Shown: positions 3,323 through 22,910 of the stretch, one piece after another
Position numbering within the stretch: the stretch's first letter is position 1
How the letters are laid out: every line of letters starts with the position of its first letter
Source: a virus
Length of the DNA: 23,023 bases
Reading direction: 5' to 3' (one strand)
Virus record (IMG/VR): IMGVR_UViG_3300017948_000009
Coordinates: 1-23,023 of that record
Made by a program: the position numbers and the translations under genes
The notes under the pieces: model-generated
What the model saw: the letters and a program-made list of their open reading frames with translations, nothing else
What the model was told of the DNA's origin: nothing
Database searches by the model: none

Positions 3323-3784
3323 ATGAGTGAGCAGCCCGCCGTGATCGTGACCATGCCGGTGCCTCCCAGCCTTAACAAATTGTGGGCGCGGGCGCCAGGC
3401 GGGAAACGCGTTCGTAGTCAGGCATACCGCGCCTGGATCTCGACAGCGGCCTGGCTTGTGAAGACGCAGATCGTGGGCATGGAACCTCTGTCATGCCGGT
3501 TCAACCTGGAGATCGAGGTGCCAGTGAGCCGTCGCGATACGGGCAACTGGGAGAAAGCTTTATGCGATCTTTGCCAGACGGCCGGTGTCATCACGAATGA
3601 TGGCAACGCGCATCGCATAACCATCACGCCAACCGAAAGAACTGACTGCATGCTGGCGTTCTGGCCACTGCCCGAGATGGGCGCCGTGCGAAAAGCGGCG
3701 AAAGAGAGGCGTCCGGCCGCCAGCGGTAAAAGAGCCACGCGCCTGACCGTGAAGCAGGCTCACGCGCTTGGATTATGGAAATAG
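3323..3784 (+). CDS. rusA: RusA-like Holliday junction resolvase
   Basis: This 153-residue protein matches the RusA endodeoxyribonuclease family. It has an N-terminal VPPSLNKLW motif and then a KRVRSQAYRAW segment. The core is RRDTGNWEKALCDLC followed by AGVITNDGN. Characterised E. coli RusA uses Asp70, Asp72 and Asp91 with Lys76. The matching positions here are Asp72, Gly74, Asp93 and Lys78, so one catalytic aspartate appears replaced by glycine while the others remain. RusA resolves branched DNA before packaging. Whether this variant still cuts is uncertain. A basic C-terminal extension of about 40 residues (KAAKERRPAASGKRATR) probably aids DNA binding. The ATG lies just after the membrane-peptide stop. 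Confidence 0.85.
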   Translation: MSEQPAVIVTMPVPPSLNKLWARAPGGKRVRSQAYRAWISTAAWLVKTQIVGMEPLSCRFNLEIEVPVSRRDTGNWEKALCDLCQTAGVITNDGNAHRITITPTERTDCMLAFWPLPEMGAVRKAAKERRPAASGKRATRLTVKQAHALGLWK

Positions 3785-6329: not shown

Positions 6330-6704
6330 GTGGCTTTTTCATCAGATGACAGGGAAAGATTATCAAAACTGCTGGCGATGTTCAGTGGCACATTTGATGG
6401 AGAAATCCTCAACGCGGCGAAAGCCGCCGAACGTCTCGTGAAATCCAGGGGAGAAACATGGGAATCAGTCATCACCATGATTTCTTCCAATCAATCAAAA
6501 CGATCTGAACCAAAACCCGATCCGTGGCGGTCGTCATTCCAGGACGAAACAGACGCATGCATGAAAAAAACGCATTTATTGACGGCATGGGAAACTGAGT
6601 TTCTTATTTCGATTTCCGATCGGAAGACTCTTTCTCCAAAACAACAAGCGCGTTTTGAACAAATAAAAGCCAAGGTGGCGTCTTATTCGGACATGAATTT
6701 TTGA
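6330..6704 (+). CDS. Small conserved phage protein, DUF2786-like
   Basis: This 124-residue protein starts at GTG 6330 behind a GAGGGG ribosome site. The N-terminal half (RERLSKLLAMFSGTFDGEILNAAKAAERLVKSRGETWESVI) matches the short helical domain of phage DUF2786-type proteins. The C-terminal half (TAWETEFLISISDRKTLSPKQQARFEQIKAKV) is the matching 'W-E-x-x-F-L ... L-S-x-K-Q' helix pair. Such proteins usually sit just before the primase-helicase gene, as here. Function is unknown; a nucleic-acid accessory role is a guess. The stop overlaps an in-frame TTG that could also start the next gene. Confidence 0.65.
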   Translation: MAFSSDDRERLSKLLAMFSGTFDGEILNAAKAAERLVKSRGETWESVITMISSNQSKRSEPKPDPWRSSFQDETDACMKKTHLLTAWETEFLISISDRKTLSPKQQARFEQIKAKVASYSDMNF

Positions 6705-6721
6705 CGCCTTATCATGCCAGC

Positions 6722-8899
6722 ATGGAAGAAATCGCGCGCTTTGTCCGCGCTCTCTTCGCGTATGCCGAGCAGGATACATTCATCAGTTTGCGCGCGTTTG
6801 ACCAGTTCAACCGATCGGTTCCTCCCGTCATCATTCGTGGCGTGCGGGTTAACGGCAGCGTCGATGCCATTATTCGTGACGCGACAATCGCGGCCGAAGA
6901 TGCTTCGCAACACGAAAATCCGACTGTTTTTTGTCCACCGATCGCCACGTTCACGGGAGCGTGGAAAGCCTCCACGACCGATCTGGCCAACGGACTGACA
7001 TTATCGGTTGAGCTTGATGACACGGACCCGGATGCCGGGCAACGTATTCTGGAAGAAATACTTGGCCCCGTCACCGTCCTGGTCAGGTCGGGATCGGACT
7101 GGATTGACGCCAGCACGGGAGAAATCAAGCCCAAAATCCATCTCCACTGGCGATTGACCGAGCCAACCACGACGGCGGAAGAGCACGAGCGCCTGCGCCA
7201 GGCAAGAACGCTGGCCACGTTACTGATCGGCGGTGACCCGACAGGTAAGCCGGTTGTCCATCCGCTACGGTGGCCAGGGTCGTGGAACCTCAAAACATCG
7301 CCTCGCATGGCGACGATCGGGGCGTTGAACGAGACGGCGGAGATCAACCTGGACGATGCCCTGGAAGCGTTGGAACTGGCCACGGATGCCCGTGGCATGT
7401 CCCGCCGGGACAACATGCCGGGCGCGTCCTCCACGCCAGAGGCGAGGCTATCCGACGTGCGCTCAGCGATGGCCTCCATCCCAAATTTTGGGGTTGATGT
7501 TCATTATGAGGAATGGATCAAATTTGGTTACGCTATTCGTCGTGCAACCGGCGGTGGTCAACACGGGTTTGATATCTGGGATAACTGGTCGCGTCTCTCC
7601 GAAAAATACAACGCGGATGAGACAGCGGCGGCCTGGCGGCGAATAGACGCCGCCGTCAGAGGCGGGACGCCTGAACGCACCATCGGCGCCGGGACCATAT
7701 TTTTTCATGCCACGCGGCACGGGTGGGTGCGCCCTTTCCCCTTGGGCGGAAACGGGGAGGCGCATGATTCCGCCGGTTTCGAGGAGCCGGGACAAACGGG
7801 ACATGAGACCGGGACAAACGGGACAAAGGATGTCCCGGTTCCTTTCGATCTCGTATGGTTCCAGGATATCCGCCCAAATCTGGATGCCGCTGATTTCGTC
7901 GAGGGCACTCTCATTGAAGGGGCCATGTCCGTCATCTACGGCGAATCAAATTGCGGAAAGACATTTTTCGCCACTGACCTGGCCCTGCACATCGTCCTGG
8001 CGTGGGTGTGGCGTGGGCTTCGGACGGAGCGAGGGGGTGTCATCTACTGCGCGTTGGAGGGGGCGCACGGGATCAGCAACCGCGTCGCCGCGTTTCGTAA
8101 GCATTACAACCTCGGCGAGCAGGATTTGCCATTCGCGATCATTCCATCCGCCATCAACATGCTTGATCCCGATGCCGATACGCCGCGTCTCGTGGCGTCC
8201 ATCCAGGCGGCCGCCAGCCGGATCGAGGACAAGGTTCTGCTGGTCGTGATTGACACACTGAGCCGCGCCATGGCTGGGGGCAATGAAAACGCTCCGGACG
8301 ACATGGGCGCTGTTGTCATGAATACGGATAAGGTAAGACAGGCCACCGGCGCGCACATAGCGTATGTGCACCATTCGGGGAAGGACACCGCCAAAGGCGC
8401 GCGCGGTCACAGCCTGCTGCGGGCGGCCACGGACACGGAGATAGAGATCGTGCGTCCGGATAAGAACAGTCCCTCGATCGCCACGGTGACCAAACAGCGG
8501 GAGATGGAGATCGAGGGGCGGTGGGCTTTTCGGCTCGAGGTCGTGGAACTGGGGAAAAATCGTCACGGCAAACCGGTCACGTCCTGCGTCGTGGTCGAAG
8601 CGGAGCGGGACGCGGGAGACCGACGAGGGCGGCCAGTGGATATCGGCGGGCAGTCCGGTATCGCGCTGATGGCGCTGCGGGCGGCCGTGGCCAGTCCTGA
8701 GTCGGCTATCATACCGCCGTTCGAAGGCATCCCAAATGACACGCGCGGTGTGCATGTGGAGGTCTGGCGGCGATATTTCTATGAAAAAATGCCTACGATT
8801 ACCCAGGACGCGCGTAAGAAGGCCTTTCAAAGAACGTCAGAATACCTAACAAGGCGCAGGCTTATCGGGGTGCGCGACCCGTGGGTATGGTTGGTATAG
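6722..8899 (+). CDS. Primase-helicase (RepA-like replication protein)
   Basis: This protein of about 725 residues carries four parts. The first is a primase-like region with SVELDDTDP and IHLHWRL (about residues 92-145). The second is a PriCT-2 domain (about 245-309) with YEEWIKFGYAIRRA and IWDNWSRLSEKY. After a polar linker (about 350-375) comes a RecA-like helicase. Its Walker A is GESNCGKT (407-414), its Walker B LLVVIDTLSRA has the aspartate near 511, and YVHHSGKD is near 550. The last 80 residues look like a winged helix (QDARKKAFQRTSEYLTRRRLIGV). Such enzymes prime and unwind phage or plasmid DNA at their origin. The linker DNA and the region right after the stop carry CGGGACA repeats. 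An earlier TTG at 6701 is an alternative start. Confidence 0.88.
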   Translation: MEEIARFVRALFAYAEQDTFISLRAFDQFNRSVPPVIIRGVRVNGSVDAIIRDATIAAEDASQHENPTVFCPPIATFTGAWKASTTDLANGLTLSVELDDTDPDAGQRILEEILGPVTVLVRSGSDWIDASTGEIKPKIHLHWRLTEPTTTAEEHERLRQARTLATLLIGGDPTGKPVVHPLRWPGSWNLKTSPRMATIGALNETAEINLDDALEALELATDARGMSRRDNMPGASSTPEARLSDVRSAMASIPNFGVDVHYEEWIKFGYAIRRATGGGQHGFDIWDNWSRLSEKYNADETAAAWRRIDAAVRGGTPERTIGAGTIFFHATRHGWVRPFPLGGNGEAHDSAGFEEPGQTGHETGTNGTKDVPVPFDLVWFQDIRPNLDAADFVEGTLIEGAMSVIYGESNCGKTFFATDLALHIVLAWVWRGLRTERGGVIYCALEGAHGISNRVAAFRKHYNLGEQDLPFAIIPSAINMLDPDADTPRLVASIQAAASRIEDKVLLVVIDTLSRAMAGGNENAPDDMGAVVMNTDKVRQATGAHIAYVHHSGKDTAKGARGHSLLRAATDTEIEIVRPDKNSPSIATVTKQREMEIEGRWAFRLEVVELGKNRHGKPVTSCVVVEAERDAGDRRGRPVDIGGQSGIALMALRAAVASPESAIIPPFEGIPNDTRGVHVEVWRRYFYEKMPTITQDARKKAFQRTSEYLTRRRLIGVRDPWVWLV
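7788..7837. repeat. CGGGACA repeat cluster inside the primase-helicase gene
   Basis: Four direct CGGGACA copies start at 7788, 7797, 7810 and 7819, and one inverted copy (TGTCCCG) lies at 7831-7837. They encode the Gly/Thr-rich linker between the PriCT-2 and helicase domains. The same word forms the array after the gene, so the cluster is probably a binding site tolerated in a flexible linker. Confidence 0.75.
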
Positions 8900-8902
8900 C
8901 AA

Positions 8903-9180
8903 AACGAAACGGGACATGGCCGATGTCCCGCCAGGGTAGCAACGAAACGGGACATCATGTCCCGGCTCTCAAAAAATGGAAAATAAAGAAAATGGCGGAA
9001 AACCTTATGTGTGAATTATCCATCGTAACGAAACGGGACATGATTCGCGTGAATGTCCCGGTCGGGACATGGTCCCGGTGTCCCGGTCGGGACATAATTA
9101 TATATCTCTTCGAGATATATAATTCATGCCAGGCCACCTGTCCCGGTCCATGTCCCGGTGTCCCGTGTCCCGATTCCCGG
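8903..9180. repeat. Iteron-like CGGGACA/TGTCCCG array, candidate replication origin
   Basis: The gap after the primase-helicase gene is packed with one word. CGGGACAT starts at 8910, 8948, 9034, 9063 and 9088. TGTCCCG starts at 8924, 8958, 9054, 9079, 9139, 9151, 9159 and 9166, with degenerate copies at 9071 and 9173. Three form palindromes with spacers of 5, 1 and 11 bases. A 15-base direct repeat AACGAAACGGGACAT recurs at 8903, 8941 and 9027. An A-rich stretch lies at 8971-9000 and an AT hairpin at 9096-9124. Dense iterons plus AT-rich DNA beside a primase-helicase is the layout of a phage or plasmid origin. An open frame runs through it (8881-9189), but its sequence is only translated repeats. 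Confidence 0.72.
9096..9124. repeat. AT-rich 13-bp hairpin within the iteron array
   Basis: AATTATATATCTC (9096-9108) and GAGATATATAATT (9112-9124) are perfect inverted repeats around a TTC loop. The position between two groups of iterons and the AT content suit a duplex-opening or cruciform element. There is no T-run after it, so it is a poor terminator. Confidence 0.7.
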
Positions 9181-9205: not shown

Positions 9206-9916
9206 ATGCGAACCTCTGAAAAACCATCAGCCTACAAAATTCGCACCCCCGAGGACCACGACCGGTATCGGCGAGCACTGGTCCCGATCGACCAGGCGTT
9301 TTTCGCGTCCGAGACAAAATGGGGTGTTGGCCGACTTGAGCGGATCATCAGCCCGGGCACCTTCGCCGCGTATCATCGGGGCTGGGATGCTTATCGGGTG
9401 GCGCTGGACGCGTGTGACGGAGCGGCGCTTGAGGAGATCGGGCCAAAGATGATCGCGGCGCTCGCGTTCATGGACGCGGAGGCGGTGGCGGGAGGACATC
9501 AACCGCTGGCGCCCGATACGTGGGAGCACGGAATGCCTGACGGGACGGTCCTGGTGGTCGTCAGGACGGGAGCGGAGGCATCAGCGGTGATACGAGCCGA
9601 GAAGGCCGCGACGGCTTACACGGCCGGTCCAGGGCTCGGCATGGCCACGGTCACTGAGCCGCTATCCACCGAGACCACGCTACCGCCAGATCTCGCCGTT
9701 ACCGTGCGCCAGCAGCATGAGGGGCGCCGGTTGCTCGTGGTCACGATGGCCGAGGTGGCGGCGCTGATGACGATGGCGGAAGCGCGAGTGCTCGGCGTGA
9801 AATGGGAGGGAGATGCAACCTGTAGTGGCAGGCAGGAGGGAGAGGGGTTGGCCGCCGATCTGGTCAGATCAGGCTTCCCTCTTCCCGCTCCGGTTGCCAG
9901 TGGGCTGGATTTTTGA
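9206..9916 (+). CDS. Conserved phage protein of unknown function, 236 aa
   Basis: This 236-residue soluble protein starts behind a GAGAAAG ribosome site just after the repeat array. The N-terminal half has a helical block with KWGVGRLERIISPGTFAAYHRGWDAYRVALDA, then IAALAFMDAEAVAGG and DTWEHGMPDGTVLVVVRTGAEASAV. The 'GV-x-R-L ... S-P-x-x-x-x-x-x-G' and 'W-E-x-x-x-P-D-G' pattern is seen in uncharacterised phage proteins near terminase or replication genes. A later LLVVTMAEVAALM segment is beta-alpha in character. No catalytic residues stand out. A hairpin terminator follows. Confidence 0.68.
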   Translation: MRTSEKPSAYKIRTPEDHDRYRRALVPIDQAFFASETKWGVGRLERIISPGTFAAYHRGWDAYRVALDACDGAALEEIGPKMIAALAFMDAEAVAGGHQPLAPDTWEHGMPDGTVLVVVRTGAEASAVIRAEKAATAYTAGPGLGMATVTEPLSTETTLPPDLAVTVRQQHEGRRLLVVTMAEVAALMTMAEARVLGVKWEGDATCSGRQEGEGLAADLVRSGFPLPAPVASGLDF

Positions 9917-11269: not shown

Positions 11270-11581
11270 ATGACGAAAACACGCTACACATTTTATTTAG
11301 ACGATGATCTGCGGGTTGCCATTCAGGCGCGCGCAGTGGTCGAAGACAGGTCCGTCGCCAACCTGATAAACCGCGCCATACGTGAGGCGCTGGCGCGCGG
11401 CGTGATGAAAAAGGGGCTGGAGGCGGATGTATGCGAGGGTCAAACCGGACCTGATCACCCGGCCGCCATCTCGACAGTCCAGTCTCAGGGGCTTCGAGCG
11501 ATTGGCGCGAGCCGGACAACGGTCACCGAAGGCGACGGACTTGATCTGCTCCCGGACGCCGCCGCGCCAGCGCCCTCATAG
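11270..11581 (+). CDS. Ribbon-helix-helix protein with long tail, 103 aa
   Basis: The first 48 residues form an RHH domain. The strand is KTRYTFYLDD, helix 1 DLRVAIQARAVVED, the turn RSVA, and helix 2 NLINRAIREALARGVMKKG. The remaining 55 residues are low in secondary structure signal, rich in Pro, Ala and Thr, and may be a tail altered by insertion or frameshift. In another frame the same bases stay open into the transposase gene. GAGG precedes the ATG. The TAG is followed directly by the GGAGAT ribosome site of the transposase gene, so the two form one operon. It may regulate both divergent operons. Confidence 0.65.
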   Translation: MTKTRYTFYLDDDLRVAIQARAVVEDRSVANLINRAIREALARGVMKKGLEADVCEGQTGPDHPAAISTVQSQGLRAIGASRTTVTEGDGLDLLPDAAAPAPS

Positions 11582-11591
11582 GAGATATTCG

Positions 11592-12512
11592 ATGCCGAAG
11601 GTCACGATTTCCACCTACGAGTTGTTTCAGATGTTTCCCGACCAGGAAGCGGCTCGGGTCTACCTGGAAGGCCGGTTGTGGCCGAGCGGCCCGCGCTGCC
11701 CGGTGTGTGGCCTTGGCGATCGGATCACGGTTCGCAAGGCCGGTTTCTACCGGTGCAACCAGTGCAAGGAGGATTTCACCGTCCGCACCGGGACCATCTT
11801 CGAGCGGTCGCATATCCCGCTGCACAAGTGGCTTTACGGGATGTATCTGTTGGTCACGGCGCGCAAGGGCATATCGTCCATGCAGTTGTCCAAAGAGATC
11901 GGGATCACTCAGAAGTCGGCCTGGTTCATGCTGCACCGGCTGCGCGAGGCGTGCGGACCGGAGGAAATGGAGAAACTGCGCGGCATCATCGAGATTGATG
12001 AAACCTACGTCGGCGGCGTCGAAGCGAACAAGCACGAGAGCAAGAAACTGAAAGCCGGACGTGGCGCGGTTGGCAAGACTGCCGTGCTGGCGATGCGGGA
12101 ACGCGGCGGTCGCACTGTAGCAATGCCCGTCGAGAACGTGGACATGGAGACGGTCAAGACGGCGATCTTCGACACCATCGAGATCGGGTCCACGATCCAC
12201 ACCGATGAGGCGGCGGTCTATGGTGGCCTCGACGGGTTGTTCTTCACGCATGACACGGTGAACCACGGCAAGCGAGAGTTCGTCCGCGGCGACGTGACCA
12301 CCAACGGGGTCGAGAGTGTGTTCGCCGTGCTGCAACGCGGCATTGTCGGCGTTTATCACCACGTCACGCCGAAGCATCTGGCCCGGTATGCCGATGAGTT
12401 CGCGTTCCGGCTGAACGAAGGCAACGTCAAGCGGCACACGCTGGACCGGTTGGAGAGCTTCACCGAGGCGACGGCGGCCAAGCGGCTCACTTACAAGGAT
12501 TTGATTCAATGA
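11592..12512 (+). CDS. IS1595-family (ISXO2-like) transposase, complete
   Basis: This 306-residue protein carries the full IS1595 layout. There is an N-terminal zinc ribbon (CPVCG and CNQCKE, about residues 36-57) and a helical DNA-binding part (GISSMQLSKEIGITQKSAWFMLHRLRE). The catalytic core has IDETYVGG, HTDEAAVYGG and NGVESVFAVLQRG, then YHHVTPKHLARYADEFAFRLNEG. The two aspartates and the N-x-V-E region of the active site are intact. The ATG at 11592 follows GGAGAT by five bases. Its stop overlaps the next gene's start (ATGA), and no terminal inverted repeats are evident around it. Codons end in C or G more often than in neighbouring genes, suggesting later arrival. It may be domesticated or part of an element with passengers. 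Confidence 0.85.
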   Translation: MPKVTISTYELFQMFPDQEAARVYLEGRLWPSGPRCPVCGLGDRITVRKAGFYRCNQCKEDFTVRTGTIFERSHIPLHKWLYGMYLLVTARKGISSMQLSKEIGITQKSAWFMLHRLREACGPEEMEKLRGIIEIDETYVGGVEANKHESKKLKAGRGAVGKTAVLAMRERGGRTVAMPVENVDMETVKTAIFDTIEIGSTIHTDEAAVYGGLDGLFFTHDTVNHGKREFVRGDVTTNGVESVFAVLQRGIVGVYHHVTPKHLARYADEFAFRLNEGNVKRHTLDRLESFTEATAAKRLTYKDLIQ

Positions 12513-21971: not shown

Positions 21972-22910
21972 ATGAGTTGGCTTGATACCTGGCCAATCGA
22001 TGCCGATCTGCAAACGCCATTCGATGCCGCCGTTGTTATTCCGACGATCGGGCGTGTTCACTTAAAGCGGGCTCTTCAAAGTGTTTATGCTCAGGATTTT
22101 CCAGGCCGTATTCACCTGCTTATCGGGATGGATAAAGACAGTTTGTTGCCCTGTCCCGAAAAGCCGGATAACGTAACAGTTCAAATACTCTGGCCCGGCT
22201 TTTCAACATCAACCCGACATGGCGGATTGACGCCCTCCGGCGATGGTGGTGCTCTTCGAACCATTCTCACGTATCTCGCGAATTCTCCATATGTCGCGTA
22301 TCTCGACGATGACAACTGGTGGGCGACCAATCATCTGAGCACGTTGCGATCGGCTATTGAAGGCGTGGACTGGGCGTATTCGCAGCGTTGGTTTGTTCAT
22401 CCTGAAACAAGCCTGCCGCTCGCGGTTGATCGTTGGGAATCCTGTGGTCCGGGTAGAGGACTACGCACGGCGCCAATGGGTGGATTTGTCGATCCGTCGT
22501 CTCTGATGATAGATAAAACAAAATGCCGATCGGCGCCGCAATGTTGGACGTTTCCGGCGGTTGAAAGCGATCCGATGTCCTCGGATTGCACGGTTGTCGG
22601 GTATCTGACGCAGATGCATATTTCGCGCGGAACGAATGAACCAACATCGTTTTACACGATGAATTCCGCCGATCCGTTCCATCCGAAACGGCTCGAGTGG
22701 ATCGGCGCGGATGTTTATGAGGAGGCAGGGCGTATGCCAGACAACTACATGGCGGCCATGGCGGCTCGCGTGGCCGCGTATCGGCAGAGAAAGGATGAGC
22801 AGGCGGTCGAAACAAATGCCGCTCGTGACACCGCCCTGGCGGAAGCGGAACGGTATATGGCGGCGCTTGATATTAATCTGGGGCGTTTGCTGGAAGTTCA
22901 GGAGGGCTGA
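21972..22910 (+). CDS. Glycosyltransferase, GT-A fold (family 2-like)
   Basis: This 312-residue protein carries a GT-A nucleotide-sugar domain. It opens with FDAAVVIPTIGRVHLKRALQSVYAQDF (residues 17-43) and reaches YVAYLDDDNWWATNHLSTL (107-125), where Asp112-114 form the metal-binding DxD motif. A cysteine-containing acceptor part follows (WTFPAVESDPMSSDCTV). The last 60 residues are a coiled coil (MAAMAARVAAYRQRKDEQAVE onward). It transfers a sugar to an unknown acceptor. Lying among head genes, it may glycosylate a virion protein, alter host surface sugars or act on DNA. ATG 21972 is preferred to an in-frame ATG at 21924 inside the previous gene. Confidence 0.78.
   Translation: MSWLDTWPIDADLQTPFDAAVVIPTIGRVHLKRALQSVYAQDFPGRIHLLIGMDKDSLLPCPEKPDNVTVQILWPGFSTSTRHGGLTPSGDGGALRTILTYLANSPYVAYLDDDNWWATNHLSTLRSAIEGVDWAYSQRWFVHPETSLPLAVDRWESCGPGRGLRTAPMGGFVDPSSLMIDKTKCRSAPQCWTFPAVESDPMSSDCTVVGYLTQMHISRGTNEPTSFYTMNSADPFHPKRLEWIGADVYEEAGRMPDNYMAAMAARVAAYRQRKDEQAVETNAARDTALAEAERYMAALDINLGRLLEVQEG

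Follow-up and report, generated by a model that had tools for sequence, protein, structure and literature searches.

Which protein reads the cluster of short repeats that follows the primase-helicase gene of this virus, and what is the cluster for? The window analysed here is the whole 23,023-base virus record IMGVR_UViG_3300017948_000009, and it contains the word CGGGACA 21 times where 3.85 copies are expected. None of 100 dinucleotide shuffles reached 21 copies, and the enrichment that a preliminary description had noticed by eye was thereby borne out. All 13 exact words which that description had claimed for the region after the gene were found at positions 8910-9172, five forward and eight reverse, and we refer to this stretch as the main iteron array. 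The two degenerate words were also recovered, GGTCCCG at 9071 with one mismatch and ATTCCCG near 9173 with two, as were the 15-base direct repeat AACGAAACGGGACAT at 8903, 8941 and 9027 and, when the octamer CGGGACAT is taken as the unit, all three inverted pairs with spacers of 5, 1 and 11. In order-2 Markov simulations any 7-mer reached at most five copies per 280 bp, against the 13 observed, and scanning the window revealed no other 7-mer with a comparable local array. Nor is the word equally dense elsewhere, a possibility that had been raised against the claim: a single distant copy lies at 22152, and the word density was approximately 0.16-0.17 per kb upstream and further downstream, whereas over the first 600 nt it was 12 per kb, a downstream value that is enriched by selection. 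The array is bounded by a conserved neighbour gene of 236 aa (9206-9916, plus strand), which also follows the array in two relatives, L009 and L329. Further along the same phage fragment, an IS1595-family transposase gene is located at 11427-12512.

The gene upstream of the array (6701-8899, plus strand) encodes 732 aa from a TTG start as listed among the open reading frames, and was recognized as a primase-helicase from Pfam matches to PriCT_2 and AAA_25 and from PHROG primase/helicase families. The PriCT-2 domain covers aa 265-337 (7493-7711, plus strand; PF08707, E 4.8e-15), and the RecA-fold RepA-type helicase core covers aa 398-563 (7892-8389, plus strand; PF13481 AAA_25, E 2.5e-34), while aa 1-260 gave no Pfam primase match. 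Among solved structures, RSF1010 RepA comes closest to the core by profile (E 1e-13) and is also matched by fold (Foldseek, TMt 0.64-0.70), and judged by these matches the core belongs with the RSF1010 RepA-type (AAA_25) RecA-fold helicases. At the C-terminus, aa 644-732 (8630-8896, plus strand) are predicted by AlphaFold2 to form a winged-helix domain (pLDDT 93-94), giving the order PriCT, P-loop ATPase and C-terminal winged helix from Pfam and AlphaFold2 combined. This last domain lies outside every Pfam family, and sequence searches of PDB and Pfam returned nothing significant for it. The predicted fold resembles the ORC1 winged helix and CAP folds with Z 8-9, a generic resemblance, and the fold search gave generic winged helices (ORC1, CAP, MukF) with neither a specific phage or plasmid initiator nor P4 alpha among the matches listed. 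Its putative recognition helix, QDARKKAFQRTSEYLTR, occupies aa 702-718 (8804-8854, plus strand), as delimited by the secondary structure of the model (H322-338) and by the partial Mantel scan and mutual information described below.

A protein search of viral contigs gave 64 relatives of the primase-helicase, to which genomes of mainly Alphaproteobacteria and more viral contigs were later added. Most of the 64 viral relatives carry a strong repeat array within a few hundred bases past the stop codon, with words that differ between them: CCGGACA, CCAGACA, CGTAACA, CGCAACA, CGTATCA, TACCGCA, CCGCACA and others. The array word is GCGTGACA in Rhizobium phages 16-3 and RHph_X2_25 and TGTATAAA in Roseobacter phage CRP-821. 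Some relatives of the helicase sit on plasmid records, with CGGGACA as the word of a Xanthobacter plasmid and CGTGACA as that of a Pseudorhodobacter plasmid. Mixed orientation of the words is common among the relatives, so the use of a word in both orientations, which the preliminary description had singled out as the unusual part of the locus, is not what sets it apart. Of the homologues, 110 were non-redundant, had the helix aligned and had not been selected by their word; a strict array was present in 59 of them, and in several more the array was weaker but built on a word of this kind. The array is thus kept in over half of the homologues tested, and the suspicion that relatives might retain the gene and lack the repeats was not borne out; close to half of them are nevertheless without a strict array and some have none at all, which counts against reading the array as an origin. 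The relative in Caulobacter phage GB2A has no array. More distant relatives are encoded by Gordonia phage Upyo, Corynebacterium phage phi674 and Vibrio phage 1.210.O; the first two show no array within the stretch examined, and the third has just a weak TCGGACA cluster further away. When contigs were searched by the word only, 45 of 120 encoded this helicase, and in most of these the array spanned or abutted the 3' end of the gene. The word is concentrated at the array in complete phages as well, with 10 of 12 copies in CRP-821 and 15 of 27 copies within about 360 bp in 16-3. The annotations of 16-3 and CRP-821 mark no feature at the array, and the open-access text searched contained no description of these arrays. 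Origin mapping by GC skew was tried on the window, CRP-821 and 16-3 and abandoned, as it gave no origin signal and the skew followed one strand almost throughout.

What the diversity of words does follow is the recognition helix. We compared the pairwise identity of every 8-residue window in the helicase and the C-terminal region with the identity of the words while controlling for core identity, in an unbiased scan of approximately 350 columns and 60 homologues with framed words. The best window, DARKKAFQ, gave a partial r of 0.595, where the median of 172 windows was 0.03, and the shifted window ARKKAFQR gave 0.58, a value that 0 of 1000 permutations reached. Identity of the ATPase core, on the other hand, showed no relation to word identity (r = -0.02). 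A frame-free repeat with 58 strict arrays again ranked ARKKAFQR first (partial r 0.62), and this segment coincides with helix 3, the recognition helix of the AlphaFold winged helix, in a scan that used no structure. The strongest co-variation with the word was found for K706 and K707: residue 706 (K/R versus Q) couples most to base 2 and residue 707 (K in the window) to bases 3-4 of the word, as measured by mutual-information z-scores that are uncorrected for phylogeny. Predicting the word from the nearest helix gave a mean word identity of 0.82 and an exact word in 38% of cases, compared with 0.72 and 12% for prediction from the nearest core. In held-out CGGGACA loci found by the word alone, 19 of 26 helices were nearest to a CGGGACA helix (base rate 15/58), and three basic residues at helix positions 2-4 were present in 14 of 16 CGGGACA/GGGGACA members versus 4 of 42 others. 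Three proteins with similar winged helices are, at the level of their sequences, a natural experiment in which the helix residues differ and the words differ: the window with ARKKAF and CGGGACA, L329 with ARQKAF and CCGGACA, and L009 with KRKLAF and CGTATCA, where L009 and L329 share 75% of the core and still have different words.

CGGGACA arrays also occur beside D5/P4-type and VapE-like helicase genes (L148:1598-4027, L132:593-3376, L087:7083-9989 and L097:4311-5756). The 75 CGGGACA loci without this helicase shared no recognition-helix motif (0 of 1913 ORFs), and since such arrays flank other initiators that are devoid of the helix motif, the word alone is not diagnostic. Other C-terminal domains were met with as well. 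L359, a Klebsiella plasmid record of 17 kb that includes a capsid gene, has an array of TGCCGCAC near 3480-3720; the gene on whose 3' side it lies encodes a RepA-like helicase that ends in a different domain. L226, L234 and L235 likewise differ in the C-terminal domain (RYAPR... type) and have TGCGGAA-type words in common, which is possibly a second domain-word pairing.

Since the word co-varies with the recognition helix and core similarity does not predict it, very probably the helicase itself binds the array, which would accordingly be the origin of the phage. Of the possibilities raised in the preliminary description, that of a phage origin is therefore strongly supported, both by the relatives that keep the array beside the gene and by the way the word follows the helix. 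Taking sequence comparison and structural model together, we infer binding and firing, and we hold it to be highly likely that the array at 8910-9172 is the replication origin of the phage as well as the binding site of the primase-helicase encoded upstream. The C-terminal winged helix would read CGGGACA, with K706 and K707 setting the middle bases. Several copies of the protein would then load on the array and assemble into a ring of the RecA-fold RepA type, whereupon the DNA would open in the A+T-rich segment beside them and in the hairpin that converging words flank. We infer as final steps that the helicase would load itself and that the fused primase would prime. The winged helix and the array would in this mechanism make up a module that may be combined with different helicase cores, and because protein and origin would co-evolve, each lineage would have its own word.

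The array contains two elements that may serve in such an opening. A segment with 68% AT at 8966-9033, between the iteron blocks, is a candidate unwinding element, and the most A+T-rich 60-mer of the whole window falls within the array. A hairpin with a 13-bp stem, AATTATATATCTC-TTC-GAGATATATAATT, occupies 9096-9124; a forward word (9088) precedes it and a block of reverse words (from 9139) follows. In the downstream regions of the relatives, hairpins with a TTTA/TAAA loop and a stem of at least 5 bp were present in 24 of 98 cases, while the rest of these loci, 753 kb in all, held 2, which makes them approximately 180 times denser in arrays; they usually lie between converging words, for example in L009 near 8230 and in L195 near 3890. 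With its TTC loop the hairpin in the window is at best a variant of these. Intrinsic terminators were considered as an explanation and rejected, as a T run follows just a few of the TTTA-loop hairpins. The RSF1010 primase starts at hairpins (PMC4434180) and a 3' stem-loop serves as origin in pRN1 (PMC4234260), which by analogy makes a priming or melting role of the array hairpin plausible.

The words inside the gene present a separate problem. The preliminary description had counted five at 7788-7837, correctly, and had regarded them as one part of a split site. They lie in mixed reading frames within the linker that joins PriCT-2 to the helicase core; four are forward and one is reverse. A palindromic word pair absent from that description, TGTCCCGCCGGGACA, is present at 7398-7412. 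Such clusters are real and recur in the relatives, but nothing tested makes the cluster the second half of one site. Within genes, 110 own words were found over 82 genes, compared with 28 +/- 6.7 (maximum 49) for permuted words, and they gather in two linkers, before the helicase core and before the winged helix. Out of 22 genes with at least two intragenic words, 20 use more than one frame or orientation, which points to selection on the DNA and not on the peptide. These numbers could mean that 7788-7837 is a further functional site of binding, comparable to P4 crr or to the iterons inside lambda gene O and needed with the main array, a reading that is compatible with the origin and to which we give somewhat less than an even chance. 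Many relatives are without intragenic words, the permuted control is compatible with a spread of the word from the nearby array, and no such function is known in this helicase family.

Another explanation for the same words, also compatible with the array being an origin, comes from the mosaic structure of the gene. Its N-terminal half shares 65% identity with L009. The core shares 74% with L010 and about 34% with L009, and for the winged helix the figure is 58%, to L009 or to L329. At the DNA level the resemblance to L009 ends at window position 7743 and that to L010 sets in at 7850, which places the five words at 7788-7837 on the junction. It may be, though it is less likely than not, that intragenic words are recombination seams which mark, and perhaps promote, the exchange of helicase cores between phages. 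The junction was mapped in this one gene, and its words match the current winged helix and not the nearest core relative, L010, whose word is CCGGACA, which argues for maintained binding or for spread from the gene's own array. A second mosaic break is seen in the gene at about 8610-8640.

With respect to the main array itself, it is very unlikely that it is an operator through which the helicase or another phage protein controls the helicase gene or the downstream gene, with replication starting elsewhere. The array does sit between two co-oriented genes, and binding by the helicase would yield the same co-variation of word and helix. It lies 3' of the gene, however, and not at its promoter, and the same 3' position is that of the origin in the SaPI replicons (PMC7581432) and in pRN1 (PMC4234260). 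Its extent of about 260 bp with 13 words, its A+T-richness and the hairpin between converging words also speak against an operator. A partition (parS-like) or handcuffing/copy-control site of a phage-plasmid is scarcely credible, for although iterons double as handcuffing sites in many plasmids and some relatives are on plasmid records, the word tracks the helicase's own helix and not a partition protein, the window encodes terminase, portal and head genes, and no ParA/ParB-like protein was found among the window proteins scanned.

Initiator helicases that bind the origin with a C-terminal domain and have iterons 3' of their gene are an already known kind of system. What appears to be new, measured against the open-access literature, is the RepA-type core, the wide diversity of words and their residue-level code, a hairpin that recurs and the words in the linkers; in that literature we found no description of a word changing across dozens of lineages or being coupled to single helix residues. 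We give a nearly even chance to the wider proposal that the origins of many phages and prophages form one large family, so far undescribed. Its members would join an exchangeable cassette of winged helix and 3' array with a central hairpin to varied RepA-type cores, would follow a simple residue-to-base code, and would have linker words as second sites or exchange seams. Most phage origins are unmapped, and if the array is rightly taken for an origin, the origin could be read from the sequence, just 3' of the RepA-type helicase, in widespread and mainly alphaproteobacterial phages and prophages. It also raises the evolutionary question of why origins change word so fast, for which escape from origin-targeting nucleases, with a precedent in PLE/Odn (PMC8263062), and incompatibility between co-infecting phages are candidates. 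The dozens of natural helix-word pairs would lend themselves directly to working out a code of protein-DNA recognition, and they allow predictions for single residues, for example that K706Q would shift the preference from CGGGACA to CCGGACA.

Several known systems share parts of this arrangement. In phage P4 a single protein, alpha, acts as primase and helicase and also recognises the origin, with a C-terminal winged helix and the two sites ori and crr, and the window may be likened to it in having short words in both orientations and two separate sites; the window differs in its helicase family and in that its putative second site lies inside coding sequence. The oriV of RSF1010 brings together iterons, an A+T-rich segment and hairpin initiation sites (ssiA/ssiB), as in the window, but among its proteins (RepA, RepB' and RepC) the iterons are read by the separate RepC, whereas the putative reader is here fused to the helicase. 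In pRN1/BIP-1 the origin likewise lies immediately 3' of a primase-helicase-winged-helix gene and is built round a hairpin, but the helicase is of the SF3 type and there is no iteron array, the stem-loop being about 100 bp (PMC4234260). The RepA/ori pair of the PLE satellites of Vibrio cholerae resembles the window in that the DNA-binding domain changes together with the origin and the two are exchanged as one unit, and differs in that the initiator is not a helicase and the iterons are about 30 bp (PMC8263062). The PrimQH primases of mobile elements, as passages of Kazlauskas 2018 (PMC5862659) describe them, have the order primase, PriCT, ATPase and winged helix, with ATPases of the RepA, DnaB or VirE/VapE type, and for the winged helix the authors proposed a part in recognising the origin. 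The order PriCT, ATPase and winged helix of the window protein fits this group, with no Pfam primase match in aa 1-260, and those passages describe no origin sequence, array position or recognition helix. In SaPI Rep and SCCmec Cch2 of Staphylococcus, according to PMC7581432 citing Ubeda 2007, the C-terminal domain binds iterons directly downstream of the helicase gene. The window has the same short iterons directly 3' of its helicase gene and, as far as co-variation and the predicted fold can tell, a C-terminal DNA-binding domain that sets origin specificity. Those staphylococcal helicases are of the DUF927 or D5/primase C-term type, whereas the core in the window is an AAA_25 RecA fold nearest to RSF1010 RepA, and the window protein would thus work like SaPI Rep without being a member of that protein family.
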